Translations under genes and position numbers: made by a program
The notes under the pieces: generated by a model
The model's database searches: none
Told to the model about the DNA's origin: nothing
What the model saw: the letters and a program-made list of their open reading frames with translations, nothing else
Part shown: positions 2,690-12,130 of the stretch, piece by piece
How positions within the stretch are numbered: position 1 is the first letter of the stretch
Layout: each line of letters opens with the position of its first letter
Assembly (NCBI GenBank): GCA_032622095.1
Contig: CP136062.1
Location: 2,914,001-2,978,000 of the forward strand
Length of the DNA: 64,000 nt
Source: Siphonodentalium dalli
Taxonomy: Eukaryota > Mollusca > Scaphopoda > Gadilida > Siphonodentaliidae
Direction of reading: 5' to 3'

Positions 2690-3010
2690 GTGAGGGGTAC
2701 GTATATCAAGCGAGTGGTTATATGGCCAATGGTGAGATGCATTGCATATGTATACATGGAGTGACTCTATGGTCATGGATGGGGTGAAAATGTTTATCTT
2801 GAATGGCTATTTTGACCATGGCGAATAGGTACACGGGGATTGACCGTATGGCCAATGGTGAGATGAATAGGTATACAAGGATTAACTTATGGTCATGAAA
2901 GTGGTGAGTAGGTATACAGGGAGTGAATATCTTGTCATTTGTGTGGTGTTTATGTATATATATGGAGTGACTGTATGTTACTGGGTTGGTTATACATGTG
3001 TACATTGGGT
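2690..3010. repeat. Degenerate ~50-bp minisatellite, block 2
   Basis: The unit type is the same as at 1715-2255 (tatggccaatggtgag, gtatacaagga, gagtgactgtatg). About 430 bp of unrelated DNA separates the two blocks, so one array was probably split or the unit was copied. The minus-strand frame at 2718-3026 is an artefact of the repeat. Confidence 0.55.
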
Positions 3011-3178
3011 TGCTATTGCTTTCCACAATAACTCAATGACATATTAGTCGATAGAGAGGTCATGTCAGAGAGTTCTCCATCTTGATGCCGTTTATGCACG
3101 TTGGAGAAAATGGTAAATTATTTCCCCCTGATAATAGTTAATAAATTTTGAGGCTAATGGGCAGGTGATTCAAGTCAA

Positions 3179-3606
3179 ATGTACAGAAGAATGCACTTAT
3201 TGGGTTCCATTCCTTCACAGGTAATGATACCTTCCAAAAAGGAAAAAAAAATTGTCTGGAAGTTGCTGGAAAGACGATCAAAATATATGGAAGTCATGGC
3301 ATATTTAGGAATGAATTGGGTTTTGAACAGTGACACGCATGTGCTTAATATGTTCAAAGTTCGAGAAAAGTGAATCAAGCTAGGCGGATAATGTTCCCAC
3401 AGAAGTTCGAGAATCAGCAGCAGCTACTTGATCTTTCTACACTTCCACCATGTGAGGAATCTTTAATTCTACACTCAAAACGATCCAACATGATAACAAA
3501 ACAGTGGAGACTTGAAACCGTTGCCAAACCAACCACTCCCGGTGTAGCACTTCATGGATGGACGGCCGATAGGCAGCCTGAGTTGTTTGAACCATTATCC
3601 CGGTAA
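3179..3606 (+). pseudogene. Broken coding fragment of an uncharacterised invertebrate protein family
   Basis: Two neighbouring open pieces (3179-3373 and 3370-3606) lie in different frames. The second contains LPPCEESLILHSKRSN, then a conserved-looking tryptophan (KQWRLE), then a GWTADRQPELFEPL tail. From memory this resembles a motif (LPPTRxSLxxHxxRANYQ...W...GW) common in uncharacterised multi-copy proteins of molluscs, echinoderms and cnidarians. The first piece contains KYMEVMAYLGMNWVL, which would fit upstream in the same family. No function is known to me. It is broken at least once and looks like a remnant of a multi-copy gene rather than an active gene. Confidence 0.4.
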
Positions 3607-4340
3607 GATGTTGCACAGAAATTATATTGACTGATACCATCACATTTAATTTGATGAAATTGACAATGAAGATGAGATTGCATAATCCGTGGGCAGAACT
3701 ATTGCAATTTATGATATGAATTATATCCACTTAAGTATGAACAACCTTTCGAGTTTAGTATAGCATACAATTGAGAGCATTGAGAACACTATCTTGTGGT
3801 AGGGTTAAGTTTTACTTTATTTCTCAATTCTGGTCTGGTACATGATTATAGCATTTCATGTCTGATATTGGGGAAGAATTCATGCTTATTGTGGTGCATG
3901 TTGTGCAGCTGTATCCATACAACTGACAAAGTGATGGGAATTTTTCAGAAAATGTTCACTTAAAATCAAAATTTTAGCTAATTTATTCCAAAAAAATCAA
4001 AAAGTTTAACAAAAATAGATTCTACCATAACATAAACCTCCTCAGATACATGCTAATTCCATGATATATGATAAGACTCTGAATTGGTTAACAAAACAGA
4101 ACGAAAACGGGCTATTCTGACTTGACAGGTATTTTCAGATAGAAAATCAGTTTTAGGGGGGTGGGTTAAGTTTTTGGGAAAAATGAATATTGTATAGGAA
4201 ATCTTCTGGAATTTTTTTTGGAAAAAGCACTACAATTTATGCATTTTTTGGGGCATTTTCGTTAATTTTTCCAAAAAATTGTTGATTAATATAACTTTTT
4301 GCACATAATAAATGTTAAGCAACCCAGATAGAATAAATAT
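3607..4340. other. No gene seen
   Basis: This is AT-rich sequence with many stops in all frames. No repeat or motif was recognised before the target duplication at 4341. Confidence 0.5.
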
Positions 4341-4410
4341 CTGATATGCAGTGTTCACCCTGCCGTTAGCAAATTTAGCAAATTGCGAAAAAAAATACGA
4401 AGTGGCTAAA

Positions 4411-4861
4411 GGTTACACTGGTGTAAATACTATAGCCAGCTCCCCCTGCGGTTGCGGGAGGAGTATAGAGTTTCACAGTTAAAACACTCTGGGCTGTGAT
4501 TGGTTGCATGAATTAAATGTAAACTGTTGACAAAAATTCAAGGAATCATTCTCCCACAAACTTCATTTGCCAAGAGGCCCATTCATTAAAGGTGAAGTCT
4601 GTTGTGGCTGTTTAGAAATTTTAAGTGTGATTGAAAAAATGACAATATTTTTTTAGTGCGGAACTGACCCTAGTCATGAAAAAACGAAAATTTGAAGTGG
4701 ATTCCCTGCTAGACGGTGTTGATTTTTTTATTGGGAAAGTTTCCACAGATGTCAAGCTCACATAATCCGAAGGCAGTTTGAACAGTTTCCATTTGACCTC
4801 TGATGCAGATCAACAAACGTTAACATTGAAGCCTATGGGAAATATTTACACCAGTGTAACC
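4411..4861 (+). mobile_element. 451-bp TIR element, left copy
   Basis: It has perfect 19-bp inverted ends, GGTTACACTGGTGTAAATA, at both termini and TAAA on both sides. By eye it is base-for-base identical to the copy at 8898-9348, which implies very recent duplication or gene conversion. It has no open frame of note, so it is a non-autonomous (MITE-like) unit. Family uncertain. Confidence 0.85.
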
Positions 4862-4942
4862 TAAAGGTATTTATCCAGTTCCTGATAGCATGTCCCAAAT
4901 CCAATTTTTAAACACACATTTAAGTCATACAAGTGAATAAAC

Positions 4943-5341
4943 ATGGAGGAGAGTCAATTTTATGATTTTTACAATGCGAAATTATCCGAAAAATCGAGAT
5001 TTGAGGGGTTGTTCGACTGTCGCGTTTGGACAGGTCGGACAAGAAAGGACGGTTATGGATATTTATATGTCAAGTTCCCTTCGAGTTATAATTCTGAGCC
5101 CGGTCAGCCGAGAAAGGATTGGGGTGTCCACCGAATAGCATTCGTCATAAAACACAGACTCGCGATGTCTCCACCCGCCTATTACCCTGGCAGCCTCGAA
5201 CTTAGTCACATATGCCATAGGAAGACATGTGTAAATCCCGACCACATTGTTATGGAAAGCCATGAAAAAAATGTTGAACGACGCCATTGCGAGGGACAGA
5301 AATATTGCACTAGGGCACATAGACCCTTTTGTCTGATTTGA
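4943..5341 (+). CDS. HNH / His-Me finger nuclease-like protein
   Basis: This is a complete 132-aa frame with a good start context (aaacATGG). Residues 25-45 (DCRVWTGRTRKDGYGYLYVKF region) match the CWxWTG...DGYGxF opening of HNH endonucleases. GVHRIAF (61-67) matches the VHRxAY helix. LSHICHRKTCVNPDHI (87-102) followed by N110 and RRHC (113-116) carries the His, Cys and Asn residues of the zinc-binding His-Me finger of homing endonucleases (zf-His_Me type). Such proteins cut or nick DNA. The gene sits 81 bp inside the left 451-bp TIR copy and converges with the DDE gene. I infer a role in mobility or target cleavage of the element, but no partner is proven. No intron is needed. Confidence 0.75.
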   Translation: MEESQFYDFYNAKLSEKSRFEGLFDCRVWTGRTRKDGYGYLYVKFPSSYNSEPGQPRKDWGVHRIAFVIKHRLAMSPPAYYPGSLELSHICHRKTCVNPDHIVMESHEKNVERRHCEGQKYCTRAHRPFCLI

Positions 5342-5361
5342 GTTAAAGAGAAAGGTACATT

Positions 5362-7959
5362 TCACCTCCTTGGTTTAACCCTTTTCCACTTGGATGACTT
5401 AGTGTATGTGTGTTCCTTTAACTGTTTGGGACATGCTTCAGGTGGAATCATGATATCCTTCTGATAGGCAATTTCCTCACTATGTTTGTCGTAGAGAGCA
5501 TATAACTTTGCCCTCCTGTCCACTCTTGCCCGTTTGGACTTTTTGGTCATTTTATATGATCTCAAGTCATTTCCAGCCTTCTGCACTGCTGCAAGTCTTT
5601 TGGACACTTTTGATCTTGGGTGAATCTCACAATCAAGTTCTTTACACAACACAGATATGGAATTCCCACAGCCTACATTTGTGGAATGGCAAGCTGAATG
5701 TGCACGCCCACTAACATTTCGGGTAAATGTCACATTTTTGGGCAGAGATACCCGAATTGCTCTGTTGAATGCCTCGGCTTTTTGCGTGTTCATGCCAAGA
5801 AAAGTCTTGTCAATCATTTGTGGACACAGTCTGTAGTCAACACACTCCGTGAGAATATCCGAACAGTCCGAAGTTTTATTGATCGTAAATTTGGGTCCTA
5901 GCACAGTTTCATTTTTAACGATCCAGTTGGATTTTTTCGTTCCCTTGCACAGATATGAGTATTTTTTACACATAACATGGGAGTTTTGGAAACACTTCAC
6001 TATTGCTTCTTTCACATTCAGTAAATGTTTCTTCATTCCTTCAGCGTTGGCTTTGAAATGCTTTCCCGCAGATGTCAATTCACCCTGACATCGATCAGAA
6101 ATGTTCATTGCGAGTTTATTTATCAGTTTTGATTTGCTTTTTAGGTCAGGTCCAGCGATGAGAGTTGGCAGCGTCTTATGGTTTTTGATGAATTTCCGAT
6201 GGTTTCTCGACACATGAGCTGAGTCCAGTTGATGAGTTGGTCTGGTCGCTGTTGCTCCTTCGTCATAGAGATCCTCACAGCCTTTGAAGCCCGCTGCATC
6301 GGGATCAGTAACAAGGTGACCAATCTCGATATTGCTATTGGTTTTCATTTCACCAAATGCTTCTTTCGCCCATGTTCTCTCATCGCCGATGCTCTTCTCA
6401 AATGGAATCGTTGCGAAACAGTCTTTCCCACATGTGTGATTATCACATTTGTTCAGGTGTTTGCGTTTCGAACAAAGCTTGTTGTGCACCACAAGTCCAA
6501 TAATGTCATGTGACGGCGTTAGATTTTCAACAACACTGTATATAACTTGAGTGCTTGGTTGAAATGGGTTTCTGCCACACCCAGAATAAATCGGATTATT
6601 ATAAAGTCCATCTGCCTGTGCGTCGATGATATGTGGACTCTTCTTTCCATCAGTTTGTTGTTTATGTATGAGTTTCGAACGTCTTTCTCGGAGATCCTTT
6701 TTATTTATTTCCTCAATTTTTGGTAAACTTTTATTTGCTGTGCTCTGAATTGACTTTTCGGCTGGCGGGGGAATATTAGCACTTGCACATATGCGTCTGA
6801 ATCCTCCTGCTGCAATGGGTGTTTTAGATAATCCGACTGAAAGTCCAACATTTGGTTTTGCTGGTCTCCTGCCAGGGTTCCCTGTTATAATTTCATCATA
6901 CAGGTTGAAAATTTCAGATCTAAAATCACAACACGTGCAAATCATTTTCTCTCTACATCCAATTCCACGAATTTCCTCAGCGTTCATGTCCCAGTATAGG
7001 AATCCTGTACACGTGGGTTTATATGCCCTATGTTTTTCGAAGGAAGAGTTCCACATCATCGCATTTCGGCGTATATTGACCACCCTGTTTGATCCGCATT
7101 CGCATTGCCAACCACTGACACATCTCTTGTCTGGGCTATCATTTCTGAAAATTAAAAAGTAAAATCCTAAATTTTACTCTTTGAACCATATATATTAAAG
7201 GTACATACATATCGGTCTAACTGTGAGATATTTTTTTTCTTTAAAAACACTGCCTGCTCCAAACAGTCCTTTGAATGAATAGTAAACTAAAGCACTCAGT
7301 GCTGCAATTTAATTTATATATATCTGCATGCAAAGCAATGTTATACCTGTGCTGTTTGCAATTAGTGACCCAATTCATATGAACAGAATAAGGGGAGTAA
7401 CTCTATCTGCAAATTATTAGGCTGAAAACCTGTGTTTTGACTCAGGGTACAGTTTTCAAATCATTTCCTGCACACAGAGGGATGGGGGCATGTCAAATTA
7501 ATTTTTGTTGTCATGCAGGAGGACACAGCCAAGATTTTGAAAAAAGATTTTAAAGTCATACACTTGATTTGAGAAGATCAAATATATGTTTAGTTTATTG
7601 ATATTATAATGCTGAATTTCATACCCCCCCCCTATTTCTTATCTATATGATGAAAAGAACATGCATATAACATTGTTTGTTGCATGGAATATTGTGAGAG
7701 ATGTTTACCTTTCATTTTTTCTTTCAGGCTCTTTGTTGTCAGATTGACCCTTCCCTCTTGGATTAAGACTGTTTGCAGCAGACCGAGTTTGATGTGCTCT
7801 CACAGAGTTTGGCTTTTCGAGAATGTCCAGTGATGTAATGATCGTTCTTTTGCGTAAATGTTTCACTACTCTGTTATCCACATATGGTTCTCGCTTGGCT
7901 TTATACAACTGTTTGTGTCCTGGTTTGAATCTGAGGGGATTATCAAATGTAAACTTCAT
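5362..7959 (-). CDS. Two-exon DDE transposase-like protein (Mutator-like type)
   Basis: Exon 2 (7144-5362) holds a 593-codon open stretch. Exon 1 runs from an ATG at 7959 to 7709. Donor GAAAG|GTAAAC and acceptor TTTTCAG|AAATG join in phase, removing a 564-bp intron and giving about 677 aa. A Cys-rich N-terminus (WQCECGSN; then CREKMICTCCDF) suggests zinc binding. Counting from the methionine at 7083, the candidate catalytic residues are D158 (AQADGLYNN), D260 or D262 (VTDPDAAGF) and E437 (MNTQKAEAFNRA), within an RNase-H-like core. The Cys/His segment CKKYSYLC and the LPKNVTFTRN...GRAHSACH block resemble invertebrate Mutator-like transposases as I remember them. All three acidic residues are present and the frame is intact, so it could be active. 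Its 3' end is 20 bp from the HNH stop. Confidence 0.7.
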
Positions 7960-8897
7960 TGTCTCACAGTCCTCACAAATTCCAAAATCCACTCAACAAC
8001 TCTGTCACATTAACAGCATTAATTTGGAAAATTCTTCTCGTGAATATACAACTTCCAGAATTTTTACAATGAGAAATGATATTTGTCTCGAGAAATGATG
8101 ACAACTAACCGTTCTGAGATCAGCACCTTGCTTTTAAGGAGTTTTGAAATTAATGATGCTTGAAAATGTCTGCCATCTTATCTGTTGATATATTACTACT
8201 TTATCAGCTGAAGGAACATGTTGTCATTATAACCTCATCATTGGCACCCCCTGTCCAATGTTAGTTAACGACATTTGATACTGTGAGACAATAGATTAAG
8301 GATTCCTTCTAATTGGGATTGCAGCAGACATTACAAATTTTAGCACCATTTTCAATCAGGAAAATTCACCTGACCCAGGGTTAAAACACCCTTGTCTGAG
8401 CTCATTGTTTAAATAATTTTCCACTTAATGTTTCTGATTTTGGGACAAGTAGTAATTGTTCTTCAAAATTATGCCAAGTTTACTGACTAATGAACCCTCC
8501 ACACTATTTATTTTTCAAAGTAAAGGCATTTTTTGTGTGAATCTGCAGCTGATTTGCATAGGGTTAAATGAAACCTGTGCATATCTGTTCCTGTGGAGAA
8601 ATTAAATTCATGGGACACAACAGATGAAAGCCAAGTGAAAACCTGATCAAATGAATGTGGTATAACTTCTCATGCTTTATTAGATGCCTCATATTATTAA
8701 ATTAAACTCAAATCCAACCTGCATTTTGGCTTTTTATTCTGAATGGGTGTATTATTGGGTGGGTTCCAATTAAAGGGTCACATGGCATTAAAAACACATT
8801 TTTTTAAAACAACATCAGTTTAATAATTATAGGTATATATCAAGGTTCACAATGGGTTATGCACAAAAAATATGAAGAAAGGCCACATGGCCCTTTA
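7960..8897. other. 5' flank of the DDE gene inside the element; no gene seen
   Basis: About 940 bp lies between the DDE start codon and the right TIR copy. It has no coding potential and no clear promoter motif. It probably holds the transposase promoter, but this is only inferred from position. Confidence 0.4.
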
Positions 8898-9348
8898 GGT
8901 TACACTGGTGTAAATACTATAGCCAGCTCCCCCTGCGGTTGCGGGAGGAGTATAGAGTTTCACAGTTAAAACACTCTGGGCTGTGATTGGTTGCATGAAT
9001 TAAATGTAAACTGTTGACAAAAATTCAAGGAATCATTCTCCCACAAACTTCATTTGCCAAGAGGCCCATTCATTAAAGGTGAAGTCTGTTGTGGCTGTTT
9101 AGAAATTTTAAGTGTGATTGAAAAAATGACAATATTTTTTTAGTGCGGAACTGACCCTAGTCATGAAAAAACGAAAATTTGAAGTGGATTCCCTGCTAGA
9201 CGGTGTTGATTTTTTTATTGGGAAAGTTTCCACAGATGTCAAGCTCACATAATCCGAAGGCAGTTTGAACAGTTTCCATTTGACCTCTGATGCAGATCAA
9301 CAAACGTTAACATTGAAGCCTATGGGAAATATTTACACCAGTGTAACC
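8898..9348 (+). mobile_element. 451-bp TIR element, right copy
   Basis: It is identical in length, orientation and (by eye) every base to 4411-4861, with perfect 19-bp inverted ends. The left flank is TTTA and the right flank TAAA, so this copy alone lacks a matching 4-bp duplication. Confidence 0.85.
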
Positions 9349-10110
9349 TAAAATAATATGCTTGTGGCTAAAAATATGGCGACAAACATTTTATGTGTCG
9401 AACGGGGAATCAACGACAATTTATTGTAAACAAAGAGACTTAACGTTATTAGCGAGAGATGACGAGAAGTGCGAGATTACGGGTGTGTTCTATTAGCTAT
9501 AATATAGTTAATGATCGTTTAGAGGTGGATTCTTAAGACGCTATATAGCACAATTGAGTAAACATAGGTTTATGAAATGGCTTCCTGTGTGACAAAAGAG
9601 CTTTATTGTACGGTGTTCTAAACTGATTGCAAAAGAGTGAAGTCGTATATACGCTCAATTCAATAGCTTCTCACATTCCCCCGCAATGGATAGTGTTGAA
9701 TGGGACGAGACTCGCGCCTGTTATGAATCAGTATAGGCTTTAGGGGCAATTAATTTGAATAGACCAACGCATTCAGGCTTTGTTAACTAATTCGGAAGTG
9801 TGGATACCACAGGGCCTCCAATTGACCAGTTTGATTTTGAACTTGCATTCAGAAAGTGGAAAGATGTGAAATCGCGTAGGATTTTTAACAGTGTTTGAAA
9901 TTTGAACGTTATTGTTAATTTATTGATATTGTATATTGTTATGTGTTAAAAGTGCTGATAACTTTGAGTAAATTAATGTTTATATCGTATTACATCTTGT
10001 GCTAATTTATCCCACAATATGTGGCTAAACGTTTTAAAAAGTGGCTAACAAAATTGCACAAGTGGCTAAAAAAAATGGCTACAAAAAATTTCGGACCAGG
10101 TCGAACACTG
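9349..10110. other. Right-hand non-coding part of the CAGTGTTC element
   Basis: About 760 bp lies between the nested block and the outer right end. The last 100 bp has four ggcta-containing motifs, which look like subterminal transposase-binding repeats. The frame starting at 10021 crosses the element end and is not a gene. Confidence 0.5.
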
Positions 10111-10118
10111 CTGATATG

Positions 10119-12130
10119 CAAGTATATTTTATTCAACATTTGTCTTATTTTATTGGTTTTCCTGATTATACTGAAATTTGCAGGTCAAAAACACCAAAAA
10201 GGTAAAACAATAAATATTTCCCACTTGCTCCGCCCTGGATACCTCAGCGTTTTGGAACCCCCATGTGACAAGGATAACTGGAGATAGCGTCAAAATTTCT
10301 ACCATTTCGTGTGACACTACCCTCATCTGGGGGCCGGTCTATGTCCCTAGAGAAATTTACATTGAACAGCCTTTAACGGCTAAAGGAGAGTAATCAGTTC
10401 TATACAAACGGTTGTCAAGGAGCAGTCTGGAGTAAACTACATACCCACATATAAAAAATAGTGGGTCTGACGACCTTTCGTTCAGTTTTCATTTCCCAAA
10501 CCCGGGATTCCTTGTAATTACCGCCAATCAAAACTTAGGTCCAAGAAATGTGTGCCCCAACACAAAAAAAGTAACATGTCACGTGCTCTCGGTGTGGAAA
10601 TTCCGAAGGCTAAATGTTGTTAAAATAGTATCCATGACGTCATGTTATACCGGACGAGAAATTTACAAATCGACAAATAAAGTAGATTGTTGACGAGCGG
10701 TCGAAAGTTTAAAATCAAGAATCACCGGAATTTGGATTGCACGCAACTGTAATTAGGGTACAACTGGCCAATCTTTGACGCTAATAATACGGCTGTGTAA
10801 GGTCGGGAGGGTTTCGGTGGGGTTGGTGGTAGAATTGTGTTGCTCTTCGCTCGTTTTGGCTGCGGTGGTACTACTGCCGGTGCTGGGGAACTGATAGATC
10901 GTTTTGTTTATGTCATTTAACTTTTTTTTAGTTCTGTAGTTGTTTTAGCAGATAGTCCCGACATTCATGTATTTTTGATTCGTGGCCGTTGATTTGTGTT
11001 ATTTTTTGACAACATGGGCGACAAATCGCCTGGCCAATCTAAAAAATAATTCGGTCTGAGTCCAAGTGATCCACATAAATTGACATTTTTTATAATTTCA
11101 AGAAGATCTGTCTTAGTTATTGTACATATTATTTTGGATCCCGGAAGTTAGCTGTTTCGCTTTATTGTCAGTAAAACAATTAACCGCCGAACGAAAAGTC
11201 ACAAACCCTGCAACTTCAAGTGCAACTATTAATTCCGATTCTTAGAATCGGCTTCACAGGGTTGAAGCGGCCATGACGGCACTGGCACGTGACCATGTTT
11301 ACGCCTGTCAATGACAACTAATTTCAGATTTATATTTAGTGCGGTGTGACGTAATTTGGGGGAAGCCCACAACAGTTCAGAAATAAAAGTTGATGGTAAT
11401 GCAATAGACCCAGTATCAGTATGAATCTGAGTGTATGTTTACATAGACTGGTCAAGGAGTACACTAAATAAATTGGGAGCATGGTTTCTCAATCCTTCAA
11501 AACACTAGTAGTATATATGCATTGAATGGGTAAAGTTTAAGAATCAATACTGAAATAATTTTGTATCACGAAGATGCTTGTTGTGTTGCCTAATTAATGG
11601 TCATTGGAACAACATATTAGCTGATTAGTATGTGCATATATGATATCGTTGACATGGAAACAGGTTTTTTCCTGACACATGACCCATAGCCGGGAGTCAT
11701 TGATTGGTGTTTTGTCAATGCAATTATCATGTTTGAAATAAAAGAAATGTACACGCAGTTACTGGTCAACCGTAATTTACAATGGCTTAGAATGGGAGGA
11801 AAACAAACGTTTTCACCAAAATGGTTGCCATGTCAACCATGACAAATTTCCAGTTTGGTATGATAACCAAAATTACTATTCATGTGTTTCAGATGTGTGC
11901 CAAATGTTGCACTTTTACCATAACATGCACAAATTTTCATATATCCGCCCCACTAATAACATCCCATGTATAAGGATGACTGTGGCCCATTTACGTATAC
12001 AAGTTATGAAACCCACAATAACAAGACGCCACACCTACTATACCATCGCTACTGTTTTGTTAGCAGCCAATGGTTGTTCCAGGAATCAAATTTTACATTT
12101 CTAAAAAAGCTACCGATCCAATAAAGCTAC
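10119..12130. other. 2-kb stretch with no gene seen
   Basis: No convincing coding region, RNA gene or repeat was recognised on either strand. The short frame at 11895-12104 has no recognisable features. Confidence 0.5.

Follow-up and report, generated by a model that had tools for sequence, protein, structure and literature searches.

A KolobokP transposon with convergent transposase and I-PpoI-like nuclease genes, inserted in a hAT-like element of the scaphopod Siphonodentalium dalli

The stretch of DNA analysed here, hereafter the window, comprises 64,000 nucleotides of Siphonodentalium dalli (GenBank assembly GCA_032622095.1, contig CP136062.1, positions 2,914,001 to 2,978,000 of the forward strand; C2:2914001-2978000 in our genome searches). 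At 4411-9348 it carries a mobile element that pairs a DDE transposase gene with a nuclease gene, and we are confident that this is a complete, recently inserted KolobokP transposon within an older hAT-like element. Its place in the KolobokP lineage, given by defining features and not by a tree, is nearly certain. In the available passages of the paper that described the lineage (Kojima & Bao 2022, Mob DNA 13:24; PMC9587614), KolobokP elements have the form LTDR-INT-LTDR, in which an internal region (INT) lies between long terminal direct repeats (LTDRs) of ~450 or 660 bp, each with inverted repeats of its own (up to 18 bp); they encode a Kolobok-type transposase and, in most families, a convergent I-PpoI-like nuclease downstream; they have target duplications of 3-5 bp, and are also found as solo LTDRs, as tandem multimers and with INT-INT junctions that have lost 3-4 bp. 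The same passages report 228 families in 7 animal phyla, and our literature search on the name KolobokP found no other paper.

The initial annotation of the window had suggested that the combination of nuclease and transposase might be new. That novelty is gone: the pairing is the one described for KolobokP, the apparent ends came from the host hAT-like element, and the element is an unremarkable, well-preserved representative of a lineage that is published but little studied. What this genome supplies is young copies, long arrays, an array in which, in the units read, intact nucleases stand beside deleted transposases, and a candidate 15-bp site which would make the published nuclease model testable with one purified protein.

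Structure and ends of the element

The two LTDRs (4411-4861 and 8898-9348, both on the forward strand) are 451 bp long and identical to the base. Each has its own perfect 19-bp inverted ends (GGTTACACTGGTGTAAATA..TATTTACACCAGTGTAACC), and the GG..CC tips fit the 5'-RR..YY-3' form of KolobokP. Between them lies an INT of 4036 bp (4862-8897), which starts TAAAGG and ends CCCTTTA, and the element is flanked by a 4-bp target duplication, TAAA, at 4407-4410 and 9349-9352. Elsewhere in the genome 4-bp duplications surround monomers, solo LTDRs and multimers of the form (LTDR-INT)n-LTDR, all of them known features of the lineage.

The initial annotation had bounded the two-gene element at 4341-10118, by an exact 8-bp duplication. 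The duplication is real (CTGATATG, 4341-4348 and 10111-10118), but what it flanks is a hAT-like element with tips CAGTGTTC..GAACACTG, and the true ends of the two-gene element are those of the LTDR pair. The left piece of the hAT-like element (4349-4410, forward strand, tip CAGTGTTCACCCTG) ends in the four bases that form the left TAAA, and its right piece (9353-10110, forward strand, tip CAGGTCGAACACTG) lies outside KolobokP and has matches in the genome. Taken together, 4349-10110 has the 8-bp duplication and the short, here imperfect, inverted tips of a hAT element; without the insert it measures ~820 bp, which is too short to encode a hAT transposase.

The genome searched amounts to 2.23 Gb in 9 contigs. 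Our searches scored part of their candidates (40 of 1528, 40 of 378, 150 of 444, 150 of 390, 76 of 699, 40 of 1141 and 114 of 668); the copy numbers given here are therefore minimum values, and pairing refers to scored matches alone. With 9353-10110 as query (40 of 378 candidates scored) there were at least 66 matches. Among 20 hAT loci displayed, 12 run continuously across the site without an insert, seven were displayed elsewhere and one is the window itself. The 12 uninterrupted loci include a second copy of the window locus, L010 (99.7% identity over 1500 bp upstream, and pieces ~97-99% identical downstream), which has the same 8-bp duplication and lacks the two-gene unit. It thus provides the matching empty site that the initial annotation had proposed to look for: comparison of the empty sequence (GTGGCTAAAATAATATG) with the filled one (GTGGCTAAA, the element from GG to CC, then TAAAATAATATG) fixes the element at exactly 4411-9348 with TAAA duplicated. 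Because the empty site carries the same 8-bp duplication, the outer hAT-like insertion was a separate one and already present beforehand; the KolobokP element sits inside this older hAT-like element. L010 itself lies at C2:4826723-4830480 (~C2:4.83 Mb), on the same contig as the window locus (2912-12011) and 1.9 Mb from it, and is either a segmental duplication or a retained second haplotype.

We considered whether 4341-10118 might be a single hAT-like element carrying both genes as cargo, since both lie between inverted tips, albeit imperfect ones, and an exact 8-bp duplication surrounds them. This is refuted by L010 and by the other insertions: the 12 uninterrupted hAT loci, the second copy of the window locus among them, are without both genes, and the 4411-9348 unit is present at many unrelated sites with 4-bp duplications of its own. 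We therefore rejected 4341-10118 as a mobile unit, and the cargo explanation has practically no chance of being correct.

The two genes and their pairing

The nuclease gene (4943-5341, forward strand) is an intact open reading frame (ORF) of 132 codons. Its product bears the PF05551 signature of His-Me finger, His-Cys box homing endonucleases (E 2.8e-13), and its best match in the PDB is I-PpoI (E 5e-4). In an alignment of seven nuclease families, H89 and N110 are invariant, together with C26, C91, C96, H101, C116, C122 and C130, while the His preceding the last Cys is not; the sequence has the catalytic His and Asn, and the zinc-binding Cys/His set, of the I-PpoI type. A comparison of substitution rates, as the initial annotation had advised, was made for the nuclease by a simple Nei-Gojobori count of nonsynonymous to synonymous rates (dN/dS) on eight diverged, stop-free nuclease ORFs, whose proteins are 89-97% identical. 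Seven of the eight comparisons with the window copy gave 0.14-0.34, and the nuclease is under purifying selection.

The transposase gene lies on the reverse strand in two exons. Exon 1 (7709-7959) is an open frame, the predicted intron (7145-7708) has canonical GT..AG splice sites, and exon 2 (5362-7144) follows a TTTTCAG acceptor and matches PF20700 (Mutator-like; Kolobok/Mutator-like DDE transposases) with E 8.8e-48. Splicing at GT-AG gives an uninterrupted frame of 677 aa; the splice pair was picked by eye for the best donor and acceptor, and alternative pairs also preserve the frame. By pattern match the protein has a DxxH motif (DSAH) and a CCHC cluster (CSKRKHLNKCDNHTC), in keeping with the Kolobok-type DDE transposase in KolobokP, which has a C/DxxH motif and, following the first D, a CCHC zinc finger; its catalytic triad was assigned by eye only. 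The nuclease and transposase genes are convergent, as in KolobokP, and their stops are separated by 20 bp. The initial annotation had these points right: an intact HNH/His-Me finger gene, an intact two-exon DDE gene, and their convergence at that distance.

The pairing recurs well within the 10 kb over which the initial annotation had suggested seeking it. Our transposase search (76 of 699 candidates scored) listed 77 matches, with array units counted singly and the window included; for 75 of these a convergent nuclease match lies no more than 10 kb away, and in 56 the match ends are the same 27 bp apart. There are also 65 of the 150 scored nuclease matches that have no scored transposase nearby, and these are partly deletion derivatives, partly other families or cases of a transposase that went unscored. 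For other families, 18 nuclease neighbourhoods were fetched and five extended, and all five contain an opposite-strand, convergent transposase as well as a second LTDR or at least its beginning; the LTDRs of the other families measure ~450-460 and 648 bp. Neither the nuclease family nor the transposase family was found in 14 control genomes.

Transposase genes that regularly lack the nuclease, which the initial annotation had named as evidence against a fixed pair, are found only outside the lineage. A set of 70 PF20700 matches fell outside the list for the window family, and for 69 of them no nuclease position among those compared lies within 10 kb. The positions compared were those of other nuclease families and 13 further nuclease matches, with few of the window family's own copies among them, which makes this a partial test; its outcome is as expected for other Kolobok lineages. 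At C1:177539428 and other places there are many PF20700 frames, several of them 900-1017 codons long and stop-free, with equal-scoring copies, which apparently come from other Kolobok-like lineages.

Those 69 matches, and the known role of His-Cys box nucleases in intron homing (as the available passages of PMC9587614 note), would suit a history in which the nuclease is a separate, self-mobile homing element that entered a Kolobok transposon from outside. However, its orientation is the same and its spacing identical in the 56 matches mentioned above, a convergent transposase accompanies it in all five of the other families, and nuclease copies with ends of their own, the other counter-evidence that the initial annotation had envisaged, were not seen among the copies read. 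The nuclease is moreover characteristic of one lineage across 7 phyla, although a few families apparently lack it, according to the available passages of PMC9587614. The nuclease as an independent insertion was therefore rejected on its recurrent spacing and pairing, the five other families included, and we consider a separate homing element very improbable.

Copies, scars and tandem arrays

We inspected 44 insertions of the KolobokP family (40 with an interior and four solo LTDRs), of which 38 had both outer tips in hand; the other six, with one tip beyond the fetched pieces, were left out of the duplication count. An exact 4-bp duplication is present in 34 of the 38. These duplications differ by site (TATA, TCTA, TACA, ATCA, TTAG, CACA and others, over the 34 sites), so that no fixed target is picked, and the available passages of PMC9587614 likewise report no strong target preference for KolobokP; the suggestion of the initial annotation that the nuclease chooses targets is thus unsupported. 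All four solo LTDRs have 4-bp duplications and are 100% identical to the window LTDR, as are all 40 scored LTDR matches (of 1141 candidates) over 451 bp, and this identity indicates that the family moved recently.

A single pattern, in which the INT-tip TAAA is kept on one side, was tried for the four insertions that lack a matching duplication, and it split apart on reading relatives of their targets. The simplest reading of C2:22.18 is a duplicated TAAA with a single mismatch. At C1:212.62 Mb, TAAAAGCTGG comes directly after the right LTDR, where three of four copies of the target repeat read CACATATAGCTGG across the site and the fourth diverges after 16 bp; the right flank is TAAA+A where the empty target has TATA, and TAAA is the exact INT tip. 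Read most simply, this one locus has lost INT and LTDR by a cut at the LTDR/INT boundary; its duplication is three bases short. No target relative useful for reconstructing the empty site was found for C7:77.94, and the fourth case, C2:178, is an eight-unit array without a matching duplication at its outer ends. Four copies supposedly without an LTDR were set aside, as at least its inner or outer tip is retained (one is truncated and one partly seen). One INT-INT junction was found by pattern search, CACATGGCCCTTTAAGGTATTT at C7:88.11 Mb, with five of eight spacer bases kept, a loss similar to those in the available passages of PMC9587614; the INT-INT junction CCCTTTAAGG agrees with the description given there.

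The spacing of nuclease matches reveals arrays of 2-16 units. In three arrays (3, 3 and 4 units) the duplications that flank the whole array match, which means that each is one insertion, either grown in place or inserted as an array. At C8:164865764-164914648 (164.87-164.91 Mb) at least 13 nuclease units stand in tandem, in an array the outer duplications of which were left out of the resolved count; in all eight of the units read, 478 bp of the transposase are deleted and the nuclease is identical to that of the window. There is ~28 bp of filler at the deletion in one of the C8 loci (L077), and L033, a dispersed copy at C3:143.54 Mb, has the same 478-bp deletion. The longest array, at C3:3219360-3289247 (3.22-3.29 Mb), has at least 16 KolobokP units, mostly of ~4.48 kb, and most of its transposase matches start at residue 71 of the query. 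A three-unit array at C9:23152937-23165749 has a 6.2-kb period, 1.7 kb above normal, which suggests that an additional insert was copied along with the units there.

LTDR/INT junctions as candidate nuclease sites

I-PpoI-type homing endonucleases cleave specific sequences and leave 3' overhangs of 4 nt. I-PpoI itself cuts a 15-bp semi-palindrome, CTCTCTTAAGGTAGC, a string that stands alongside I-PpoI in two papers. The cut leaves a 4-nt TTAA overhang (available passages of PMC9587614). Among six families whose junctions were inspected, family E (648-bp LTDR) has the junctions TTCCT-TTAA-GGTAGC and CTTCT-TTAA-GGTAGC, each of which matches the I-PpoI site at 12 of 15 positions, in a register that places the cut at the boundary; in the same stretch the junction with the outer flank matches at 9. 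TTAA and GG come with Kolobok ends anyway. Given these, the chance of both E junctions is ~8e-4, before correction for the six families inspected, and for that reason the match is a lead and not a result. Family C (also with a 648-bp LTDR) has 11 matches at the right junction, 9 at the left and 8 at the flank. In the families with ~450-bp LTDRs no I-PpoI-like junction was found: family A, that of the window, scored 9 and 9 of 15, B 8 and 8, G 9 and 7, and H 8 at one junction, the same as the background of 7-9 given by outer-flank junctions as a control. A score of 12 is in any case not rare, since the E stretch has one other 15-bp position at 12 and one at 11, off its junctions, and family H has a 12 in both of its repeats. 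The substrate in PMC11325842, as far as its available passages describe it, is a palindrome of the other (CTCTC) I-PpoI half, so that the half kept by E is not established as the more important one. The scar at C1:212.62 Mb, which starts exactly at the LTDR/INT boundary, is a second lead in the same direction. The junction comparison and this scar both go beyond the available passages of PMC9587614.

Close to the right tip, the LTDRs of families A, B, G, H and I share a subterminal block around GCCTATGG(G)AAA, although elsewhere they are largely unalike. This shared block is a possible candidate for a transposase binding site.

Discussion

To judge from the lineage and from the families to which the two proteins belong, the transposase would recognise the inverted LTDR tips, and could move a single LTDR, a monomer or a multimer, by cut-and-paste or via a circle, each insertion creating the 4-bp duplications that we observe. 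The nuclease would then make a staggered break at LTDR-linked sites, without choosing targets, and repair of that break from a sister or ectopic LTDR could add or remove LTDR-INT units, giving rise to arrays and to restored composites. The available passages of PMC9587614 leave nuclease function as a model, and suggest as possible nuclease targets either tips that abut in a circle or else a site within the LTDR. To a break-inducing, array-building role for the nuclease, drawn from the same lineage and families, we would tentatively give somewhat less than an even chance.

Several observations weigh against this picture as a whole. In the long C3 array, 12 of 16 nuclease matches start only at residue 40-41, and four of those 12 list the first 42 residues as a separate frame; these broken nucleases imply that arrays can grow when the nuclease in cis is not intact, and unequal crossing-over alone could produce them. 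Such arrays weigh against a decisive role for the nuclease, although action in trans could explain them. Four of the 38 resolved insertions are without matching duplications. The eighth dN/dS value, which comes from just five differences, is 1.0, and the six pairs formed by four diverged nuclease copies give 0.28-0.88, as expected with decay of copies after insertion.

It may therefore be that the nuclease is dispensable for arrays, which would form by unequal crossing-over, and that it serves some other step such as the opening of circles. The mostly split nuclease frames of the C3 array favour this, and the abutted tips with their 4-bp spacer would make a palindrome of the kind cut by His-Cys box enzymes (a point also present in the available passages of PMC9587614). 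A dispensable nuclease explains less well why, next to a deleted transposase, the nuclease is intact and identical in all eight C8 units read, but a young array would show intact C8 nucleases regardless; on the other side again, action in trans would permit growth of arrays with broken nucleases. We regard dispensability as a serious contender, if not one that we would back outright.

A more specific suggestion is that the homing site of the nuclease might be the LTDR/INT boundary itself, with the LTDR tip and the INT tip as half-sites and the 4-bp spacer as the overhang. An ancestral I-PpoI site would then have been kept as the element's ends, transposase and nuclease would cut the same four bases, and the nuclease could excise and re-insert INT+LTDR translocatable circles at LTDR ends, so sustaining the composite. 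The leads for it are the junctions of family E and the scar at C1:212.62 Mb, and we consider it unlikely.

Among known systems, I-PpoI is the nearest to the nuclease: the match spans the His-Cys box, and the catalytic His and Asn and most of the Cys/His ligands are kept, with equivalences drawn by eye. I-PpoI, however, is located in a group I intron and the window nuclease in a transposon. Bacterial composite transposons and the translocatable units of IS26 similarly have two mobile direct repeats around a cargo, and a unit of repeat plus interior (available passages of PMC9587614), whereas the transposase of the window element is in the interior and not in the repeats. The groups Kol0, KolobokD, KolobokE and KolobokH share with it a Kolobok-type DDE transposase, 4-bp duplications and RR..YY tips; they differ, in the available passages of PMC9587614, in having other accessory genes or none, no long direct terminal repeats, and TTAA-specific targets, where those of the window family vary. 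KolobokP, in contrast, agrees in its LTDR-INT-LTDR structure, RR..YY tips, convergent gene pair, solo LTDRs, multimers and INT-INT junctions, and differs in nothing defining. Beyond its description, S. dalli provides a directly read empty site, an array whose units, in the eight read, combine an intact nuclease with a deleted transposase, and a single scar that is best read as the loss of INT together with an LTDR and not of an LTDR alone.

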